64,000 nucleotides of DNA from Mesorhizobium sp. RMAD-H1 (GTDB taxonomy: Bacteria > Pseudomonadota > Alphaproteobacteria > Rhizobiales > Rhizobiaceae), in assembly GCF_014191375.1 (NCBI RefSeq), contig NZ_JACHWN010000002.1, positions 744,001 through 808,000 of the forward strand, given 5' to 3'. The notes below the pieces were generated by a model that was not told the DNA's origin, did not search any database, and saw only the letters and a list, made by a program, of their open reading frames with translations. Shown here piece by piece: positions 45,851-61,916 of the stretch; within the stretch, counting starts at the first letter, position 1; every line of letters begins with the position of its first letter. The position numbers and the translations under genes were made by a program.

Positions 45851-45896
45851 AATTCTTCCTTCTACGGGCAACCCCGCCCGTGAAAATGGATCTTTG

Positions 45897-46120
45897 TTTC
45901 GACGGCAGGTCTCCTGGCTTGCGGATATCTGCTTCACATCTGCCTTCCCGTCAGGTTGAACCCGGCAGTGGCATGACATCTCCGGAAGAAGGGATGTCAC
46001 AAGGATGCTCGGCAATCCGCTCACAGTTGCGGGGGCAGCCACGGTCTTGGTCCCGATTGGGTCGTCCGCACCGTGTTCCCTATTAATCCCCTGGAAGTCA
46101 TTCCTCGGGGAACCGTCTTC
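45897..46120 (-). ncRNA. Cobalamin riboswitch
   Basis: Read on the minus strand from 46120 to 45897. It has the 5' P1 strand GACGGTT, then GGGAACACGGTGCGGA, CCCCCGCAACTGTGAGC, the GCCACTG element, GGGAAGGC and the B12 box AGCCAGGAGACCTGCC (45919-45904), closing with CCGTC. All core blocks of the class are present in order. Binding of adenosylcobalamin would shut off the downstream importer genes starting at 45850. Confidence 0.95.
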
Positions 46121-46342
46121 CTGTTCTTAGGCCCCTCGAAAGCCCGCCGTCAAGATGAAGCCCGCGGCACGCCTTCACCTCATCGGAACATCCATTGCAC
46201 TGGCTCCTCCTGAAATCACGCCAACGGAACAGTTCGACCCCGGGCCGTCTCGCCATTGATCGCCGTTTTGTAACGTAATAACATATCATGTCAAGACATC
46301 AGATCAGCCTTGCCAAGCTGGGCAGGATCAGATCGGGGACGC
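46121..46342. other. Promoter region of the cobalamin importer operon
   Basis: 222 bp between the end of the sugar ABC operon (46343) and the riboswitch. It must contain the promoter of the riboswitch transcript. TTGACA occurs on the minus strand at 46297-46292 (TGTCAA on the plus strand), too far out to pair confidently with a -10. Confidence 0.35.
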
Positions 46343-54293: not shown

Positions 54294-54425
54294 GGACAGA
54301 CCGGGCGTTCCTCCATGCCAGGAAAATGCAGGGTGCTGTAAGCCGTTCGACCGAGCTTACGCAATATGGCGATATTTCCTCGTTTCCGATCTTTCGTCAC
54401 ATTGCCGAAGCTGTTGCTTGACAGC

Positions 54426-54466
54426 CGAGGCCCGGTGCCCCCGCCCCCAAATATAACCGGGCCTCG
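54426..54466 (+). other. Hairpin with C-rich loop upstream of the first 37-aa gene
   Basis: CGAGGCCCGGT (54426-54436) pairs perfectly with ACCGGGCCTCG (54456-54466). The 19-nt loop begins GCCCCCGCCCCC. A near-identical structure lies at 60789-60831 before the paralogous gene. Confidence 0.7.
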
Positions 54467-54571
54467 TCACGCTTTCAGACGTCCGAAATCTCTCCGGCCC
54501 CCGACAAGGCTATCCCTGCGGAACAAAGTTGCACAAAAGAGGGTTACCACCACGCTGGCGGCTGGCGAACA

Positions 54572-54697: not shown

Positions 54698-54810
54698 ACA
54701 ATCTAGAATATTGCTTAGTCCACAATTAAAACGCGATAAAACGACGAATATGCTATTGACTTTCTGTTAATAATACTATTTATCTCTCGCAACTTTTTGG
54801 GGGCACAACA

Positions 54811-54924
54811 ATGCAGGAAACAAATGATCGCGGACTGAAAGATGTGTTGTTGTGGCTGAGCTATGCCAGCGCTTTCGTCGTGATCTTCATCGCCGTCAAC
54901 GAACTGCGGGGGGCCATCGTCTGA
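54811..54924 (+). CDS. 37-residue single-helix membrane protein, paralogue A
   Basis: Tiny protein starting MQETNDRGLKDVLLWLSYAS: a polar N-terminus, one predicted membrane helix (about residues 13-31) and a short tail ending ELRGAIV. The ribosome site is only G-rich (TTGGGGGC, six bases before ATG). A second gene at 61020-61133 encodes a protein of identical length with 20 of 37 positions identical without gaps, which is the main evidence that both are real. A TTGAC box lies exactly 55 nt before each start. Function unknown. Confidence 0.72.
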   Translation: MQETNDRGLKDVLLWLSYASAFVVIFIAVNELRGAIV

Positions 54925-55052
54925 ACAGGCGGTAAGCGTCTATAGGACGTTGCCTCTTGCGATGGAACTGTGCGTGTTTCCGGCTTCCCCAATCTTTTGA
55001 TCTAGGTCGCCGCAATGATTCAACGATAAGCTGCGTTCAATCATTAATACGG

Positions 55053-55814
55053 CTAGTCCCATCGTCCTTCGAAGAGCGGCTTCACCGGATGCCGTGATTT
55101 CACCATCCGCAACCGGCGCACCGTGTCGGCATGTTCATAATCGGCGGCATCGGTGTCGAGTTCGACGCCGTAAGCCGCCTCCGGATTCGTCCTCGCGCCA
55201 ACGAGCAGGAATTCGGCTCCCTCAAAATCCAGAAGCTCCACGTCCTCCCGGTCGAAGCGCCGTCCCCGGAATTCCTTCTGCAGCTTGTCGGGATAATCCG
55301 CCTGATCCTGCTTTCTCAAACCGGCATTGGCAGGGCTGCCCTTCTCAGGATTCTTCACCGAGAGCACATAGCTTGCTTCAGGGGCGATCCTGAACGCCTT
55401 TTGCACCTCTCCCGGCCGCTCGGGCAGTTCGAGCGCATAGGACAGATGCATCTGGCCGTCCTCGAGCGTGATGACATAGACGCCCTCTCCAGCCGGGCGC
55501 GCCGCCGGTTCGGTGCGTTCCCCGCGGGTTTTGGTTTCATAGACTTCGCCCCGCAGGTTCTTTTCTATGTCCCTGGCGGACCTTGCGACGGCTTCCACGA
55601 AGCCCCAGTAGCGCTCGTGCCGCTCGGCGGCGGGCAGCCGCTTTTGCCCGACCACCATCTGCCGCACCCTTTCTCCGCCGCGCGGCCGCAGCACCAACCC
55701 GAAACGCTGCACGTTGCGAAGGCCTGCAGGGCTCTCCTCCTCCACGCGCGGACGGTAGAAGAAGAAGATGTCGCCCGCTTCCAGAACCTCTGTTCGCCTG
55801 TCGGATTCACTCAT
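55053..55814 (-). CDS. Conserved hypothetical protein, 253 residues
   Basis: Soluble charged protein without signal peptide. ATG 55812-55814 begins MSESDRRTEVLEAGDIFFFYRP; upstream is GAAAGGCG. The body has an Arg-rich N-terminal third (FGLVLRPRGGERVRQMVVGQKRLP), a central beta-rich part (GVYVITLEDGQMHLSYALELP) and a C-terminal KLQKEFRGRRF...LLDFEGAEFLLVGAR. Similar hypothetical proteins occur in rhizobia, but I cannot name a family or fold. A 68-residue gene lies 41 bp upstream on the same strand, so they may be co-transcribed. Confidence 0.72.
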   Translation of the reverse strand: MSESDRRTEVLEAGDIFFFYRPRVEEESPAGLRNVQRFGLVLRPRGGERVRQMVVGQKRLPAAERHERYWGFVEAVARSARDIEKNLRGEVYETKTRGERTEPAARPAGEGVYVITLEDGQMHLSYALELPERPGEVQKAFRIAPEASYVLSVKNPEKGSPANAGLRKQDQADYPDKLQKEFRGRRFDREDVELLDFEGAEFLLVGARTNPEAAYGVELDTDAADYEHADTVRRLRMVKSRHPVKPLFEGRWD

Positions 55815-55855
55815 CGCCTTTCCTCGGCTAACCGCGGTCGCTCAATTCTCACGGC

Positions 55856-56062
55856 TTACCAGCGGATCACCAGCACCTTGTCGCTTCCATTGCCGAGCTC
55901 GACCGCTTCCCTGCCGTCGGGCTTGCGGCTTTCGATTCGGGCATCTTCGATGAATTCCACCGCGGCGACATTGATGCCGAAGGCCTCCTCGATCTCGGCC
56001 GCGCAGACCAGCGTCTCCGGGGGCAGATGCTGCACTTCGGCCATCAATTCGCGAAGGGTCAT
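55856..56062 (-). CDS. Small acidic hypothetical protein, 68 residues
   Basis: Starts MTLRELMAEVQHLPPETLVCAAEIEE with GGGAGAG nine bases before ATG 56060-56062. Predicted helix-strand mix; ends ELGNGSDKVLVIRW. Reads in the same direction as the downstream 253-residue gene. No recognisable family; codon use looks genuine. Confidence 0.6.
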   Translation of the reverse strand: MTLRELMAEVQHLPPETLVCAAEIEEAFGINVAAVEFIEDARIESRKPDGREAVELGNGSDKVLVIRW

Positions 56063-56169
56063 GGCCGCTCTCCCTTTTCCTGTTTCAGAAACGTCAGTTG
56101 ATGGGAACCAAGGCACGCCGAAAAGGTTCCGGCTGAAGCGTATTCACGCAATATTCAAGAGGAACCCAG

Positions 56170-56631
56170 ATGCCGCTTACCCTGACCAGTCCCGTCCTTG
56201 CCGAAGGCCAAACCATTCCCGTCAAATATGTGCGCGATGGAGAAAATCTGATGCCGCCGCTGAAATGGACGGGAATACCCGAGGGCACGCAGAGCTTCGC
56301 CCTCGTCGTGGAAGCCTCCGATGCCCCGGGAGGAACGTTCTACCACTGCGCGATATACAACATCCCGCCGGACCGTGATGGCCTGCCCCAAAGCATCGAT
56401 ACAAGCCGCGATAACGCGCTGAGCTACGCCCGAAACGATTTCGGCAACGCCCGCTACGACGGACCGCAACCGCCAGCGGGACATGGTCCGCACCATTATC
56501 ACTTCCGTCTGGCGGCGCTCGACGTCCCGAGCCTCAACATCCCCGCCAAGGCTGGTGCACAGCAGATCTGGAAGGAGGCGCGCAAGCACATGATCGAGGA
56601 GGCCCAACTGATCGGCATCTATGAGCAATAA
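56170..56631 (+). CDS. YbhB/YbcL-family PEBP-like protein
   Basis: 153-residue protein of the phosphatidylethanolamine-binding (Raf kinase inhibitor-like) family. LTLTSPVLAEGQTIPVKYVRDGENLMPPLKW starts the fold. SFALVVEASDAPGGTFYHCAIYNIPP carries the conserved Asp-Ala-Pro ligand-pocket motif, and GPQPPAGHGPHHYHFRLAALD the second. No signal peptide. Function in bacteria is not established. Single gene. Confidence 0.88.
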   Translation: MPLTLTSPVLAEGQTIPVKYVRDGENLMPPLKWTGIPEGTQSFALVVEASDAPGGTFYHCAIYNIPPDRDGLPQSIDTSRDNALSYARNDFGNARYDGPQPPAGHGPHHYHFRLAALDVPSLNIPAKAGAQQIWKEARKHMIEEAQLIGIYEQ

Positions 56632-56735
56632 CCACTTATTGTGGCATTTGATTCGGTTTCACTCTACCAGTAAGCGCAAGTCCGGCTGATTCCCTTCTGA
56701 CCAGGGAACGCCGAATTGCTGCAGGGAGCGCAGGC

Positions 56736-58025
56736 ATGAAAGTCCTCGTTACCGGTGCGACCGGTTTGATCGGATCCGCGATATGCGCTCGCCTCCACGC
56801 CGAAGGACACGAGGTGACAGCGGCAATACGGCCGGGAAGCAGCCCCGTACCCGCTTCCGTCCAGCATATCATCTCTCTCGACATGGCAAAGGCCACCCAA
56901 AAGAGCGACTGGACGCCCCATCTCGAAGGTATCGAGGCCGTGGTCAATTGTGTTGGTGTAATGCAGGACAGTCCGCGCGATGACACGGAAGGCGTCCATG
57001 TCGGCGGAGCATCGGCGCTGTTCCTTGCCTGCGAGGAACTGGGCGTCCGGCGGGTGATCCAGATTTCCGCGATCGGGGTGGATCGCGGCCCTGTATCGGC
57101 TTTTTCGGAAACCAAGTCGCGCGGCGATGCGGCTCTGATGGAACGCGATCTCGACTGGGTGATCCTCCGCCCTTCAGTCGTGCTTGGCAGGCCCGTTTTC
57201 GGCGCAAGCGCGCTCTTCCGCGGGTTGGCGGCGCTACCCGTCCTGCCGGTGGTGAAGGGGACGGGCGACCTGCAGGTCGTTCAGCTCGATGACGTGACCG
57301 CTACCGTTGCATTCTTCCTCAAATCCTCTGCCCCCGCGCGCGTGGCGTGCGAGCTCGTCGGCCCGCAGAGGCTGACCATGAGCGAGGTCGTGGCGCGCTA
57401 CCGCCAATGGATGGGATGGCGTCCGGCCCGCGGGTTCGAGCTGCCCCGCCTGCTCTCCGCCCTTCTCTATCGGGCCGGCGATCTTGCAGGGGCTCTCGGC
57501 TGGCGATCACCGATGCGAAGCACCGCGGCCAAAGAGATCGCCCGCGGCGCGGTCGGCGACGCGACGCACTGGAGCGCCCTGACGGGCATCGTTCCCCAAT
57601 CGCTCGATGCCGCGCTGGCGACGAAGCCCGTGACGGTGCAGGACCGCTGGTTCGCAAAGCTCTACTTCCTCAAACCCTTGATCTTCGTCGTGCTGGCGTT
57701 GTTCTGGATCGCCACCGGGATCGTGTCGCTCACCACCGGCTTCCATTCAGGCGTCGATCTGATGGTTCAGGCGCGAACCGGGATGCTGGCCGTTCCGGGC
57801 GTGGTGGCGGGAGCAATCGCCGATATCCTCGTTGGCCTGGCGATCGCCTATCGCCCTGCCGCCCGGCGGGGCCTTTACGCGGCGATCGCCCTGTCCCTCT
57901 TCTACATTCTGGCCGGCACGATCCTGCTTCCGGAACTTTGGAACGAGCCCCTCGGGCCGTTGATGAAGATCTGGCCCATATTGGCGCTGCATTTCGTGGC
58001 CCTTGCCATACTGGATGAACGGTAG
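56736..58025 (+). CDS. SDR (NAD(P)-binding) domain fused to DoxX-like membrane domain
   Basis: 429 residues. Atypical SDR: MKVLVTGATGLIGSAICARLHAEGHEV with TGATGxxG, then VQISAIGVDRG and a LDWVILRPSVVLG block (NmrA/NDUFA9-like, lacking the YxxxK at the normal place). From about residue 305 a four-helix membrane domain of DoxX type follows (FWIATGIVSLTTGFHSG...IADILVGLAIAYRP). Such fusions are common in alpha-proteobacteria; role unknown, perhaps quinone- or redox-linked. The next gene starts 28 bp after the stop. Confidence 0.82.
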   Translation: MKVLVTGATGLIGSAICARLHAEGHEVTAAIRPGSSPVPASVQHIISLDMAKATQKSDWTPHLEGIEAVVNCVGVMQDSPRDDTEGVHVGGASALFLACEELGVRRVIQISAIGVDRGPVSAFSETKSRGDAALMERDLDWVILRPSVVLGRPVFGASALFRGLAALPVLPVVKGTGDLQVVQLDDVTATVAFFLKSSAPARVACELVGPQRLTMSEVVARYRQWMGWRPARGFELPRLLSALLYRAGDLAGALGWRSPMRSTAAKEIARGAVGDATHWSALTGIVPQSLDAALATKPVTVQDRWFAKLYFLKPLIFVVLALFWIATGIVSLTTGFHSGVDLMVQARTGMLAVPGVVAGAIADILVGLAIAYRPAARRGLYAAIALSLFYILAGTILLPELWNEPLGPLMKIWPILALHFVALAILDER

Positions 58026-58053
58026 CCGAATCCGGGAAGCGGGAAAGGTTCCA

Positions 58054-58524
58054 ATGGTCTATTTCATTCTCAAATATCTGCATGTGATGGGCGCCGCAGT
58101 GTTGCTGGGCACGGGGGCAGGCATCGCGTTCTTCATGCTGCTGGCGCACCGGACGGGCAATGCGGCAATCATCGCCGCCGTGGCACGTATCGTCGTGATC
58201 GCGGATTTTCTTTTCACCGCCACTGCCGTCGTGGCACAGCCCGTCACCGGGGTCGCGCTTGCGTGGCATCTCGGCTATTCACTCACCGAAGGCTGGATCG
58301 TCCTGTCGATCCTGCTTTATCTCCTGACGGGCGCGTTCTGGCTCCCGGTGGTCTGGATGCAGATGGAGATGCGGCGCCTGGCGACAGAGGCCGCAGAGAG
58401 GAACACGGCTCTGCCCGACCGCTATCACAGGCTCTTCCGGCTGTGGTTCATATTCGGCTTTCCGGCCTTTGGCGCTGTCCTGGCCATATTCTGGCTGATG
58501 ATCGCCCGGCCGGCGATCTGGTAG
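58054..58524 (+). CDS. DUF2269-family integral membrane protein
   Basis: 156 residues with four hydrophobic helices (about 5-28, 40-65, 78-100 and 128-150). LKYLHVMGAAVLLGTGAGIAFFM has the conserved His of the DUF2269 family. ATG 58054 is preceded by GGAAAGG; an in-frame start inside the upstream gene is less likely. Probably in one transcript with the SDR-DoxX gene. Function unknown. Confidence 0.8.
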   Translation: MVYFILKYLHVMGAAVLLGTGAGIAFFMLLAHRTGNAAIIAAVARIVVIADFLFTATAVVAQPVTGVALAWHLGYSLTEGWIVLSILLYLLTGAFWLPVVWMQMEMRRLATEAAERNTALPDRYHRLFRLWFIFGFPAFGAVLAIFWLMIARPAIW

Positions 58525-58701
58525 GCCCTGATCTCGTCGATCGAAATATTTCGAACCTGGTTCGGGCATCCGGAACAATACGCAAATCCGGTAGTTTAGC
58601 GCCGTGCACTGTTTGGTGACCGCGACCTGGAGCAAGGCTGCCGGTCCAGGCAATCCACAACTGAACAGCTGCGTCCTGTACCAGCAAGGAAGGAGCCCCA
58701 G

Positions 58702-59211
58702 ATGGCAAACATGGATGATTGGCTGAACCAGTGGCTACGTGACGCGCACGCAATGGAGGAGCAGGCGGAACAGATGCTGAGCGGACAGGTAAGCCGCCTC
58801 GAGAACTATCCGCAATTGCGCGCCCGCATCGAACAGCATCTGACCGAGACGAAATCACAGCGCGAAAGGCTCGAAAGATGTATCGAGCAGCGCGGCACCT
58901 CCACCTCGAGCATGAAAGATATCGCCGCCAAGTTCACTGCGATGATGCAGAGCTTCAGCGGCGTGATGGTCAGCGATGAAGTGGTGAAGGGAACGCTGGC
59001 AAGCTACACCTTCGAACATATGGAAATAGCCTCATATCGCATCCTCATCGCTGCCGCCGAAGCGGTGGGCGATACGACCACCGCCCGCGTCTGTGAGGAA
59101 ATCTGCCGCGAAGAGGAAGCCATGGCCGCGTGGCTCGCCGATCACGCAGATGAAGTGACACGCGAATATCTGAAGCGGGAGCAAGTCGAGTCGGAGACGG
59201 CCAAACGGTAA
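58702..59211 (+). CDS. DUF892 (YciE/YciF-like) ferritin-like protein
   Basis: 169-residue all-helical protein. MEEQAEQMLSGQVSRLENYPQLRARIEQHLTET starts a four-helix bundle with carboxylate ligands (Glu in MEEQAE; E/H in EHMEIASYRILI; EEEAMAAWLADH). This matches the DUF892 ferritin-like family, often induced by stress. ATG 58702 follows AAGGAAGGAGCCCC. Single gene, ending 81 bp before a strong hairpin. Confidence 0.85.
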   Translation: MANMDDWLNQWLRDAHAMEEQAEQMLSGQVSRLENYPQLRARIEQHLTETKSQRERLERCIEQRGTSTSSMKDIAAKFTAMMQSFSGVMVSDEVVKGTLASYTFEHMEIASYRILIAAAEAVGDTTTARVCEEICREEEAMAAWLADHADEVTREYLKREQVESETAKR

Positions 59212-59292
59212 AGGCGGCGCCCCTAGAAGTAGGGATCAGTTCTTTCCGCTCGCGCCCCGTGATCACACGCGACGATCAAATGTTCAAAATAG

Positions 59293-59324
59293 CTTCGACG
59301 CCACATCATCATGTGGCGTCGAAG
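59293..59324. terminator. 14-bp perfect hairpin after the DUF892 gene
   Basis: CTTCGACGCCACAT (59293-59306) pairs perfectly with ATGTGGCGTCGAAG (59311-59324) over a 4-nt loop. Downstream on the plus strand is TTGCTGC, a poor T tract; on the minus strand CTATTTTG follows. Probably a terminator for the DUF892 transcript. Confidence 0.6.
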
Positions 59325-59483
59325 TTGCTGCTGAAAGATATTACAATTGCAAGCATCTGAAACGCCGACAATATCTGAAACAATTTGACTCTCGCCCGTT
59401 CGAAGCCCACACTTTTTGCGTTTCAGGCAACTCCATTCATTGCGATATTATCCAGAGCCCAGCATAGCCGAACGGAGCGCAAC

Positions 59484-59744
59484 ATGCCGATAAGAGGTGG
59501 CTATCCCGGCCCCGAATCCGCCTATACCAGCGAAGACTGGCGCATCATGCAGACCGCTTATCGCAAGTCCGCCGCTCTGCTGGACCGGAATCCTGCTGGC
59601 GGCAAGGATGCGGATCGGCTCGCCAGGGAAGTGATGCGTCTCTACAATCTCGGTTATCGGGATATCGAAGCCTTGGCCTTCGCCGCTGCGAATGTCGAGA
59701 ACAACCGCAGGGAGCAGGACCGAAAAAGCCCCGCTTCTGTCTGA
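59484..59744 (+). CDS. Small hypothetical protein, 86 residues
   Basis: MPIRGGYPGPESAYTSEDWRIM start with GGAG seven bases before ATG 59484. Mostly helical, charged, no membrane segment; AYRKSAALLDRNP and REVMRLYNLGYRDIEALAFAA suggest a helical bundle. I do not recognise a family. Codon use is normal for the window. Single gene. Confidence 0.62.
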   Translation: MPIRGGYPGPESAYTSEDWRIMQTAYRKSAALLDRNPAGGKDADRLAREVMRLYNLGYRDIEALAFAAANVENNRREQDRKSPASV

Positions 59745-59846
59745 CGTTTCCCGCGCTCAGCTTCGCGACCCTTTCGGCATCTTCTGGGGCATGAACACGC
59801 CCCGTTAAAGCCGGCTGCCAGACGGCTGGAGAAAAGCCTGCACCGA

Positions 59847-60185
59847 TCATCCCTCGACGAAGGCGCGAAGCCGCGACAAGGCATCCTCCCATTGCCGGGA
59901 AACCTCGTCGAGATAGGACCTGACTTCTGCGATCGGCTCGGGCCGCAAGGCAAACTGGCTTTCGCGCCCGACCCGGTTGCTGCTCACCAGCCCCACATTC
60001 TCCAGCACGCGGAGATGCTTCGTCACAGCCTGCCGCGTCATCTCCGTATCCGCCGAGAGCCTTGCGATCGACCATGTCCGGCCGTCGCTCAGCTTCATCA
60101 CGAGCGAGAGACGGGTCCGGTCGCCGAGAGCCGCGAATATTGCGGCCGGTTCCGGATCATGCGCTTGCATTTCATGCCCCGACAT
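59847..60185 (-). CDS. ArsR-type winged-helix regulator linked to an AHSA1 gene
   Basis: 112-residue ArsR-family repressor. DPEPAAIFAALGDRTRLSLVMKLSDGRTWSIARLSADTEMTRQAVTKHLRVLENVGLV spans the winged helix (described as residues about 10-67). It has no cysteine cluster, so metal sensing is unlikely. ATG 60185 overlaps the upstream AHSA1 gene by 14 nt; the sixth codon ATG is an alternative. Pairs of ArsR and AHSA1 genes are common, with the regulator controlling the pair. Confidence 0.85.
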   Translation of the reverse strand: MSGHEMQAHDPEPAAIFAALGDRTRLSLVMKLSDGRTWSIARLSADTEMTRQAVTKHLRVLENVGLVSSNRVGRESQFALRPEPIAEVRSYLDEVSRQWEDALSRLRAFVEG

Positions 60186-60618
60186 AAGCTTCGATATTCT
60201 TCATCTGCCCTGCCCAGCCTTCCTCGTTCATGCGCAATGCATCCGGCCGCCGATGCGCCGGCAGCGCCCCGAAGCCGGATTCGACCACCGTCAGACGCGT
60301 TCCGGCCGATATCGGCTCGAGCCGGAATTCGACCAGCGTCGGCTTCTCTCCCGAATAATCGACGTCGGGATCGACCGCATAGGGATGCCACGTGAAGGAG
60401 AAATAGTGCGGCCGGTCCATCCGCTTGATGGTCGCCTCCCACTTCACATGCTCGTAGCCGGGATGGGTGATGCGGCCGCGCGCGATTTCCCCCGGCACGA
60501 AGGGGCCATCCAGCCGCACCCCGAACCATGCGCCGAATTCTTCATGATCGGTCAAGGCACGCCAGACCCGCTCGATGGGAGCGTTGAGTTCGATGTTCTT
60601 TTCGATACGATCCGTCAT
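60172..60618 (-). CDS. SRPBCC (AHSA1-like) domain protein
   Basis: 148-residue START/SRPBCC helix-grip protein: RIEKNIELNAPIERVWRALTDHEEFGAWFG at the start, then GYEHVKWEATIKRMDRPHYFSFTWHPYAVD, and RLTVVESGFGALPAHRR near the C-terminal helix. ATG 60616-60618 with GAGG eight bases upstream. Ligand unknown. Upstream of and overlapping the ArsR gene, forming a two-gene operon. Confidence 0.87.
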   Translation of the reverse strand: MTDRIEKNIELNAPIERVWRALTDHEEFGAWFGVRLDGPFVPGEIARGRITHPGYEHVKWEATIKRMDRPHYFSFTWHPYAVDPDVDYSGEKPTLVEFRLEPISAGTRLTVVESGFGALPAHRRPDALRMNEEGWAGQMKNIEAYVGA

Positions 60619-61019
60619 AATGGCAACCTCCTGGTTGCGCATATCATGTCAGGGTCAAAGCCATAACGCAACCATAGAGTTGCACAATTTTGAACAGTGA
60701 AAATGACAAATGTTCTCCCCATTTGTTAGGGTTGCGACTCACCCAATATTTAGCGCACAAATTGCAGGCCGGATGTTCCATCGGCGCTGAGGCCCGACCC
60801 CCACCCGCAACCATCATCCAGGTCGGGCCTCTTCCACCTTTCCCGGCGGAATTCTGGTGTTCTGGCGCGGTGCTTCCATCAGTTCTGGTCGGGGGTGATG
60901 ACCTGCCCTGAGGGGATATGGGACAGCTCCCTTAAATGAATTGATCCGCCACCGCTACCGCCAGTTGACTTTTTGATCGTCATACAATCTTCTGCCCGCA
61001 ATTCATCTGAGGGCAGAAA
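60619..61019. other. Intergenic region before the second 37-aa gene
   Basis: 401 bp holding the AHSA1 promoter on the left and, on the right, the GAGGCCCG hairpin (60789-60831) and a TTGAC box (60965-60969). No protein gene is supported. Confidence 0.5.
60789..60831 (+). other. Hairpin with C-rich loop upstream of the second 37-aa gene
   Basis: GAGGCCCGACC (60789-60799) pairs perfectly with GGTCGGGCCTC (60821-60831). The 21-nt loop begins CCCACCCGC. Sequence and form match the hairpin at 54426-54466. Confidence 0.7.
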
Positions 61020-61133
61020 GTGAAACAGACGAACCGTCGCGCATTGAAAGACGCATTGCTTTGGCTGACCTACGCCCTGATCTTTGTGGCGATCGCCCTT
61101 GCCTTCAATTATCTGCGCAGCATTTTCATGTAG
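61020..61133 (+). CDS. 37-residue single-helix membrane protein, paralogue B
   Basis: Begins GTG at 61020 (MKQTNRRALKDALLWLTYAL) with GAGGG eight bases before. One predicted membrane helix (about 13-31), tail YLRSIFM. 20 of 37 residues match paralogue A at 54811 in an ungapped alignment, including T-N, LKD, LLWL, YA, FV and N-x-LR. Followed by a 21-nt hairpin (61167-61187) that can end its transcript. Function unknown. Confidence 0.75.
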   Translation: MKQTNRRALKDALLWLTYALIFVAIALAFNYLRSIFM

Positions 61134-61232: not shown

Positions 61233-61916
61233 TTAGTACTTATCTTTGTAGCGGCGCACGCCATCATTGACCCGGATCGTCTTTGCGGAGTGAATCCTGC
61301 GCTCCGGCAGATATTCGACCCGATTGACATACTGGTTGCGCGTGACGACGCGGGGACGCTCGTGAATGCGGGTAACAACATTCTCGCGCACGACCGGCTG
61401 AACGTTGTTGACCTTCACGATGCGGTTGACGTGACGCACATAGCGGGTGTTGTTGACATCGCGATAACGGGTGACGTTATTCACCTTGCGAACGGTCTTG
61501 TAGCGATAGACCGTTTCGGAGGTCGGGCGTACGTTGGCACGGTTCACGATCGTCTTGCCCGTCCGGATATGGCGGGTGGGAAGGACGTTTGTCGCGGATC
61601 CGTAACGGTTTTCACGGATCACCGCGGTCCTGTTGTGGACGCGCGTGACGGTATTGACGCGCGTCACCGGCTGAACGCGCGTGACGTTCACGATACGCTT
61701 CGTGTGCGTCACGGTGCGGGGACGCTCGACGTCGCGATAACGGGTGACGTTGCGGACCTGGCGGACGGTCTTGCCCTGCTGATAGGTCGTGCTGACCTTG
61801 GTGGTGGCGACCGGACGCTTGTGACGCTCGGCGGCTTCCGCCGAAACCGTGATCGCTACCATCGATGCGCTTGCCAGAGCAGCGATGGCAAAAAGCGTCT
61901 TAAAGGACTTCATCAT
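61233..61916 (-). CDS. Secreted basic protein with internal duplication
   Basis: 227 residues. Signal peptide about 1-29 (cleavage after SAEAA). Residues 49-126 and 140-217 are ungapped repeats of each other, sharing KTVR-V-NVTRYRDV, RIV-V, VQPV-R and VTR-H motifs. Strongly basic and rich in Val, Arg, Asn and Thr, with alternating hydrophobic and polar positions suggesting beta structure. No Cys. Family not recognised. AGGAGAG precedes the ATG-ATG start. Possibly a surface or envelope-associated protein. Confidence 0.72.
   Translation of the reverse strand: MMKSFKTLFAIAALASASMVAITVSAEAAERHKRPVATTKVSTTYQQGKTVRQVRNVTRYRDVERPRTVTHTKRIVNVTRVQPVTRVNTVTRVHNRTAVIRENRYGSATNVLPTRHIRTGKTIVNRANVRPTSETVYRYKTVRKVNNVTRYRDVNNTRYVRHVNRIVKVNNVQPVVRENVVTRIHERPRVVTRNQYVNRVEYLPERRIHSAKTIRVNDGVRRYKDKY

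Follow-up and report, generated by a model that had tools for sequence, protein, structure and literature searches.

The 64,000 nt stretch of the Mesorhizobium sp. RMAD-H1 genome analysed here (contig NZ_JACHWN010000002.1, positions 744,001 to 808,000; hereafter the window) carries two small open reading frames (ORFs), A (window positions 54811-54924, plus strand, ATG start) and B (61020-61133, plus strand, GTG start), each encoding a protein of 37 amino acids, together with two hairpin-forming elements that lie upstream of them on the same strand. A first-pass annotation of this DNA had drawn attention to the two ORFs, whose coordinates proved correct, and had proposed that they form a real family of small membrane proteins with a conserved control region that includes the hairpins. 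Comparisons within the genus are based on six genomes, G000 to G005, of which G000 is the window's own.

The microproteins A and B and their proximal leader

ORF A encodes MQETNDRGLKDVLLWLSYASAFVVIFIAVNELRGAIV and ORF B encodes (GTG)KQTNRRALKDALLWLTYALIFVAIALAFNYLRSIFM. Aligned without gaps, the two proteins share 19 of 37 residues as translated and 20 when the GTG start is read as methionine, the latter being the figure originally reported, and in 100,000 shuffles of B the identity with A never exceeded 13 residues. The A protein, searched against the whole 5.14-Mb genome at E<=10, retrieved itself and B alone (B: E 4.9e-7). Two weak matches to a third paralogue, in G000 and G002 (E 0.22 and 0.68), come without such a 37-amino-acid frame and were judged to be due to chance. 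Twelve columns are invariant across the nine A and B proteins of the genus, with the start counted as methionine, and they include D11, W15, Y18, N30 and R33. The one hydrophobic helix per protein that had been noticed in the window recurs throughout: the 19-residue Kyte-Doolittle maximum is 1.99-2.52 in 9/9 proteins, always within residues 12-32 (the peak covers residues 12-30, or 14-32 in one B), and the single hydrophobic segment is of membrane-spanning length in all nine. Both products are presumably inserted into the membrane. A and B each stand alone in the window, the downstream ORF being apparently convergent. Neither protein matched a Pfam family up to E 1; the NCBIfam search returned no match for A and, for B, two sub-threshold matches only (E 0.11 and 0.12), which score about 12 bits where the cut-offs are 260 and 177.

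Orthologues of A are present in all six genus genomes and orthologues of B in three, in each case as a 37-amino-acid frame without internal stop. The ratio of non-synonymous to synonymous changes (pN/pS) is 0.25 for A (pooled over 15 pairs) and 0.34 for B (3 pairs), and the 402 nucleotide differences among A orthologues are distributed 120/61/221 over codon positions 1, 2 and 3. Because these ratios are low in frame compared with the values of the other two frames (0.83 and 1.64 for A, 1.23 and 2.96 for B), both genes look to be under purifying selection, and thus to be real and maintained by it. The homologue search and the comparison of substitution classes therefore speak for the small-protein family that had been proposed, since a conserved frame and selective constraint were both found.

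A profile of the nine A and B proteins was run against 394 genomes of the family, namely the six of the genus and 388 others. Some match at E<=1 was obtained in 200/394 genomes; full-length matches were confined to the six genus genomes among the matches listed, which likewise include no credible relative in the 388 other genomes. The best match outside the genus among those listed (E 0.0026) was rejected, covering as it does only 17 residues within a 479-codon frame. Within the reach of the profile search, the family looks restricted to the genus, a small group of bacteria from soil and plants. A plasmid search with A only gave no match, and the nucleotide pattern of the A leader matches five public records, those of Brucella endophytica, Phyllobacterium leguminum, P. 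salinisoli, P. phragmitis and Paramesorhizobium deserti.

Immediately upstream, A and B share a proximal leader composed of TTGAC-N13-TACWAT and, usually, a G-rich ribosome site. At A (54756-54810, plus strand) it consists of TTGAC, TACTATTTATCTCTCGCAACTT and a GGGGG ribosome site, and 32/44 anchored columns are invariant in 6/6 orthologues; at B (60965-61019, plus strand) it consists of TTGAC, TACAATCTT and a GAGGG site, with the same distance between TTGAC and TACWAT. The observation that TTGAC begins exactly 55 nt before both start codons (at 54756 and 60965) is accurate, and it extends to the 9/9 orthologues of A and B, where this distance is 53-56 nt and the spacing from TTGAC to TACWAT, start to start, is 18 nt without exception. 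GGGGG occurs in 6/6 A and 2/3 B leaders (the window's B being the one with GAGGG), as against 2/57 control ORFs. The 22-nt core of the A leader has a single genomic occurrence at up to three mismatches, and the pattern TTGACNYT-N10-TACWATYT, allowed up to one mismatch genome-wide, was found at the A and B sites only, the reversed control giving 2. From its sequence, the leader probably contains a promoter and a ribosome site, and we infer that both genes are transcribed; the element itself might act as promoter for an alternative sigma factor or as binding site of an activator. Of the conserved control region initially described, this proximal leader stands, while the hairpin belongs to a dispersed, multi-copy element, as described below.

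A dispersed family of hairpins with C-rich loops

The element upstream of A (54404-54475, plus strand) is a candidate small RNA of what we term subfamily VI, in which a 5' stem-loop is followed by a GAGGCCCGG hairpin (54427-54465) with a C-rich loop; that upstream of B (60766-60841, plus strand) belongs to subfamily III and has the same plan, with a GAGGCCCG hairpin (60789-60831) and again a C-rich loop. They score 61.0 and 68.5 bits, respectively, with a covariance model whose eight training sequences include both of them. The 11-bp stems built on GAGGCCCG and the C-rich loops noted earlier are thus present at these positions, but they are not peculiar to A and B, as an exact search for GAGGCCCG-N15-40-CGGGCCTC found 8 places in the genome (0 with the reversed pattern), and the hairpin-to-start distance differs, being 345 nt at A and 188 nt at B.

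This first model was built from the eight G000 copies, each oriented so that its loop holds more C than G, and the one-strand C-richness of the family is consequently in part a matter of choice. At E<=0.01 it identified 31 places in the six genus genomes, 23 of them outside the training set, which amounts to between 2 and 9 matches with C-rich loops in each genome (9/8/3/2/4/5 in G000/G002/G003/G001/G004/G005). A scan of 61 genomes at the same threshold returned, apart from these six, two weak single matches only. The 35 hairpins examined in what follows are 37 model rows minus two opposite-strand repeats; four of them have E >0.01 in the first model, three of which come to E<=0.002 under a second model that was trained on 30 copies and not on them. 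Outside the genus, the second model matched 13 places in 11 of 119 genomes (best E 3.0e-5). Ten of these places and two from the 61-genome scan were inspected by eye: six of the twelve, from four genomes in three genera, show the two-stem plan and a C-rich loop, and the other six resemble other GC-rich hairpins. Against Rfam 15, the hairpins of the eight G000 loci (subfamilies I-VIII) remained without a match even at E 5, and 11 loci of VII, IX and X had sub-cut-off matches only, the best near a hairpin scoring 28.1 bits against a cut-off of 50. Nor were these RNAs found described in the open-licence literature searched, whether by the letter strings GAGGCCCGG/CCGGGCCUC or under Phyllobacterium small RNA, Mesorhizobium C-rich or anti-Shine-Dalgarno RNAs and Paramesorhizobium deserti.

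The main stem is preceded by a second, smaller stem-loop, with at least 5 pairs in 34/35 copies when the 25 nt are folded alone. Compared with shuffles, these 25 nt reach z < -1 in 27/35 copies (mean -1.68), a result that is independent of the covariation alignment. That alignment was restricted to the best 30 copies (29 distinct rows) because a laxer cut-off admitted opposite-strand readings. Over the distinct rows 87.2% of cells pair, cells with double changes number 40 against 17.3 in shuffles, and the covariation score is 0.222 against 0.117; when the alignment is slid, the score is at most 0.092 and paired cells fall to 30-53%. From sequence comparison, we infer that the hairpins are a family of small RNAs.

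About ten subfamilies, labelled and grouped by eye, can be distinguished within the genus, of which III, VII and X are found in 6/6 genomes. Conserved stretches lie 5' of subfamilies III, VI, VII and X, again by eye; that of III (60707-60765 in the window, plus strand, from a six-genome alignment) is probably the promoter or the 5' part of RNA III. Downstream of subfamily X, a GC-rich inverted repeat with a T-run, judged by eye to be a terminator, is present in 6/6 genomes, and in 4/6 X copies (loci L096, L098, L091 and L094) an unpaired CCTCCTCCC, the anti-Shine-Dalgarno motif of the literature, lies between the main hairpin and this terminator; L096 belongs to the window's own genome and lies outside the window. 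Pairing of the loops with their own upstream or downstream sequence is weak (mean z -0.41 and -0.28, respectively, over 41 places). In subfamily III, an upstream GGTTGCG (60730-60736) is exactly complementary to the loop's CGCAACC (60806-60812) in 5/6 genomes, a possible pseudoknot. A further observation concerns CGACTC (GANTC), found at 60736-60740 and upstream of 15/35 hairpins (III 5/6, VII 6/6, VIII 3/3, IV 1/1), which in VII stands one base before a TACARTAT box. GANTC is the CcrM methylation site, and its presence might mean cell-cycle control.

The association of the hairpins with A and B is partial. A subfamily VI hairpin precedes A in G000, G002 and G004 and is missing there in the other three genomes; a subfamily III hairpin precedes B in 3/3 genomes that have B, and in 6/6 genomes it follows A on the same strand at a distance of 598 to 13,284 nt. 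Only 6/31 places at E<=0.01, or 6/35 of the copies examined, have A or B directly downstream. In G001 and G003 no trace of B follows the III hairpin (score 18; shuffles average 17), and in G004 (locus L085) the sequence there scores 54, with no shuffle above 26, and is the remnant of a decayed B with neither start codon, nor G-rich site, nor continuous frame, beside an RNA that looks intact. RNA III thus persists in genomes that lack B or have only its remains; the RNA outlives the ORF, and we read the hairpins as separate genes and not as the control region of A and B. Small membrane ORFs near the 35 hairpins number 21/563, the conserved ones being A, B and two further pairs. These pairs (L066/L067 and L076/L077) are small hydrophobic ORFs conserved between genome pairs, on the strand opposite the hairpin; the L077 ORF matches A over 13 residues only (E 6e-4).

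Alternative readings of the locus

Taken together, A and B are probably lineage-specific single-span inner-membrane microproteins behind a shared leader, and the hairpins separate, multi-copy small-RNA genes. Several observations weigh against this interpretation. A sigma-70 promoter scan reports no site at the A and B leaders, and the 12-nt gap from TTGACN to TACWAT is too short for an ordinary sigma-70 promoter. The small 5' stem-loop is clear in just 5/8 copies in longer minimum-energy folds, no more than 64.8% of the cells of helix 1 are paired, and the covariation alignment was fitted to the model; moreover, two of five covariation measures do not exceed shuffles, namely double-change pairs (8 against 6.2, a value reached by 51/500) and further pair types (19 against 20.3, reached by 423). 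The 8 bases that follow the main stem hold at most 4 T in 25/35 copies, which leaves the 3' ends outside subfamily X unexplained. Finally, with about ten copies per 5 Mb, a hairpin within 500 nt upstream of both paralogues is very unlikely by chance on our own rough estimate, and the linkage of hairpin and ORF (A 3/6, B 3/3), being far above chance, makes it likely that the pair shares its descent or is functionally tied.

One alternative is that the hairpin is part of a long 5' leader that controls translation or processing of A and B in cis, which was the idea of the first-pass annotation; the strand and order, alike in both paralogues, as well as the hairpin upstream of every B, agree with it. 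We nevertheless consider such a leader very unlikely: half of the A genes have no hairpin upstream, neither its distance to the start codon nor the sequence between hairpin and leader is well kept, RNA III persists without B, and most copies lie away from A and B altogether. A different view would see in the hairpins mere transcription terminators or a dispersed DNA repeat, similar to repetitive extragenic palindromes (REP) or miniature inverted-repeat transposable elements (MITE). They are indeed multi-copy and GC-rich, in 10/35 at least 5 of the 8 bases behind the main stem are T, and 9 places pass E<=0.01 on the opposite strand too, at lower scores. Against this view stand the scarcity of T after the stem in the other 25/35 and the separate terminator that X carries beyond its hairpin; so do a second, sequence-variable stem upstream, the upstream stretches that by eye are conserved in four subfamilies, and three subfamilies found in every genome, one of them (III) always downstream of A on the same strand. 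This view strikes us as rather unlikely.

TisB and ShoB, type I toxin peptides, are short and hydrophobic and lie near a small RNA, and a small one-helix peptide that is duplicated, genus-restricted and adjoins a structured RNA calls such a module to mind, in which a membrane-active peptide is repressed by the neighbouring RNA through a C-rich loop acting on the G-rich ribosome site. The excess of GGGGG at A and B over control ORFs fits, and so does half of a pairing test in which duplex energies between loop and start region were compared with those of 57 greedily chosen window ORFs (at least 100 amino acids, not verified genes): the duplex between the loop next to A and the start region of A has an energy of -18.2 kcal/mol, rank 6/57. 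The loop beside B, in contrast, ranks 55/57 on the B start region, and taken together the pairing of the loops with the A and B ribosome sites is not exceptional. Unlike in TisB and ShoB, moreover, the RNA here outlives the peptide gene, being kept without B in 2/6 genomes and beside a decayed B in one, and the missing hairpin at three A genes and the few RNA copies that precede A or B (6/35) are equally at odds with a toxin and its repressor. A dedicated neighbour-to-neighbour antitoxin is not supported, and a type I-like module appears quite unlikely; A may instead be one target among many of the C-rich-loop RNAs.

Possible roles, neighbourhood and known systems

Bacterial proteins such as AcrZ, MgrB, KdpF and CydX have about 30-50 residues and one membrane helix and often modulate larger membrane proteins. 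A and B resemble them in being short and in having one helix, and differ in belonging to no Pfam or NCBIfam family and in having no operon with an evident partner. By analogy with such single-helix microproteins, A and B would most likely bind and tune a larger membrane protein, a role we propose because of their size, their hydrophobicity and the invariant D11, W15, Y18, N30 and R33. An envelope or stress role had been hinted at from stress-type proteins encoded nearby, and genes for SDR/DoxX, DUF2269 and DUF892 proteins do lie between A and B (56736-59211, plus strand). In the stretches compared, however, the full trio accompanies A in no genomes but G002 and G005; G003 has just DUF892 there, and G001 and G004 have none of the three. 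Such a role stays conjectural. Beyond B, the minus strand encodes a secreted-looking protein with V-x-R/T repeats and no Pfam family (61233-61916), a homologue of which is found near candidate RNA III in 5/6 genomes. A cobalamin riboswitch (97.5 bits) lies at 45887-46132 on the minus strand.

As for the RNAs, the closest parallels are found among other alphaproteobacterial small RNAs. PmaR, which is confined to Agrobacterium and a single Rhizobium strain, is described as one spoon-like hairpin whose long stem carries a large, single-stranded, C-rich loop for pairing with its targets (PMC6234868). By this description, the present RNAs share with it the C-rich loop on a long stem and the lineage restriction; they differ in having two stems and in falling, within one genus, into about ten subfamilies. 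The anti-Shine-Dalgarno hairpins SmelA075/SmelA099 have CCUCCUCCC loops, as does their relative RS0680a (PMC3927594), and CcsR-like RNAs adjoin DUF1127 proteins in the CIN1 locus (PMC10253847). SmelA075/SmelA099 and the CcsR or cuckoo RNAs are likewise multi-copy hairpin RNAs with C-rich stretches of the anti-Shine-Dalgarno type; yet their loop motif CCUCCUCCC occurs in 0/35 of our stem-loop cores, CCTCC alone in 3/35, and the published motif CCTCCTCCC lies outside the cores only, after the main hairpin, in 4/35 copies that all belong to subfamily X. CIN1 resembles our loci in that RNAs stand beside a small-protein gene, and differs in the protein, which is a DUF1127 protein of 71 amino acids there and a 37-amino-acid one-helix protein without Pfam match here.

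By analogy, the present RNAs may work like PmaR and the anti-Shine-Dalgarno RNAs, in which case the C-rich loop would pair with G-rich sites on messenger RNAs, for example ribosome-binding sites. One RNA gene and one microprotein gene probably were copied as a unit, or came to adjoin each other, early in the history of the genus; this would explain the similar layout of the A and B loci, and the RNA would have been kept where the protein gene is absent or was lost. A bolder idea, which we regard as unlikely, is that RNA family and duplication-linked microprotein form one stress circuit, a two-part module new to the alphaproteobacteria and analogous to CIN1 with an unrelated partner. An example would be a circuit in which the RNAs silence G-rich ribosome sites, that of A included, and the peptide tunes the envelope response; we find this doubtful as well.

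The decayed B beside an apparently intact RNA constitutes a natural experiment on whether RNA and protein are functionally tied. Our results give this group of bacteria, in which such genes readily escape notice, a microprotein family whose coding nature is well supported, and a candidate small-RNA family that we encountered neither in Rfam nor in the literature searched; the latter comprises about ten subfamilies within the genus and has likely relatives in three others.

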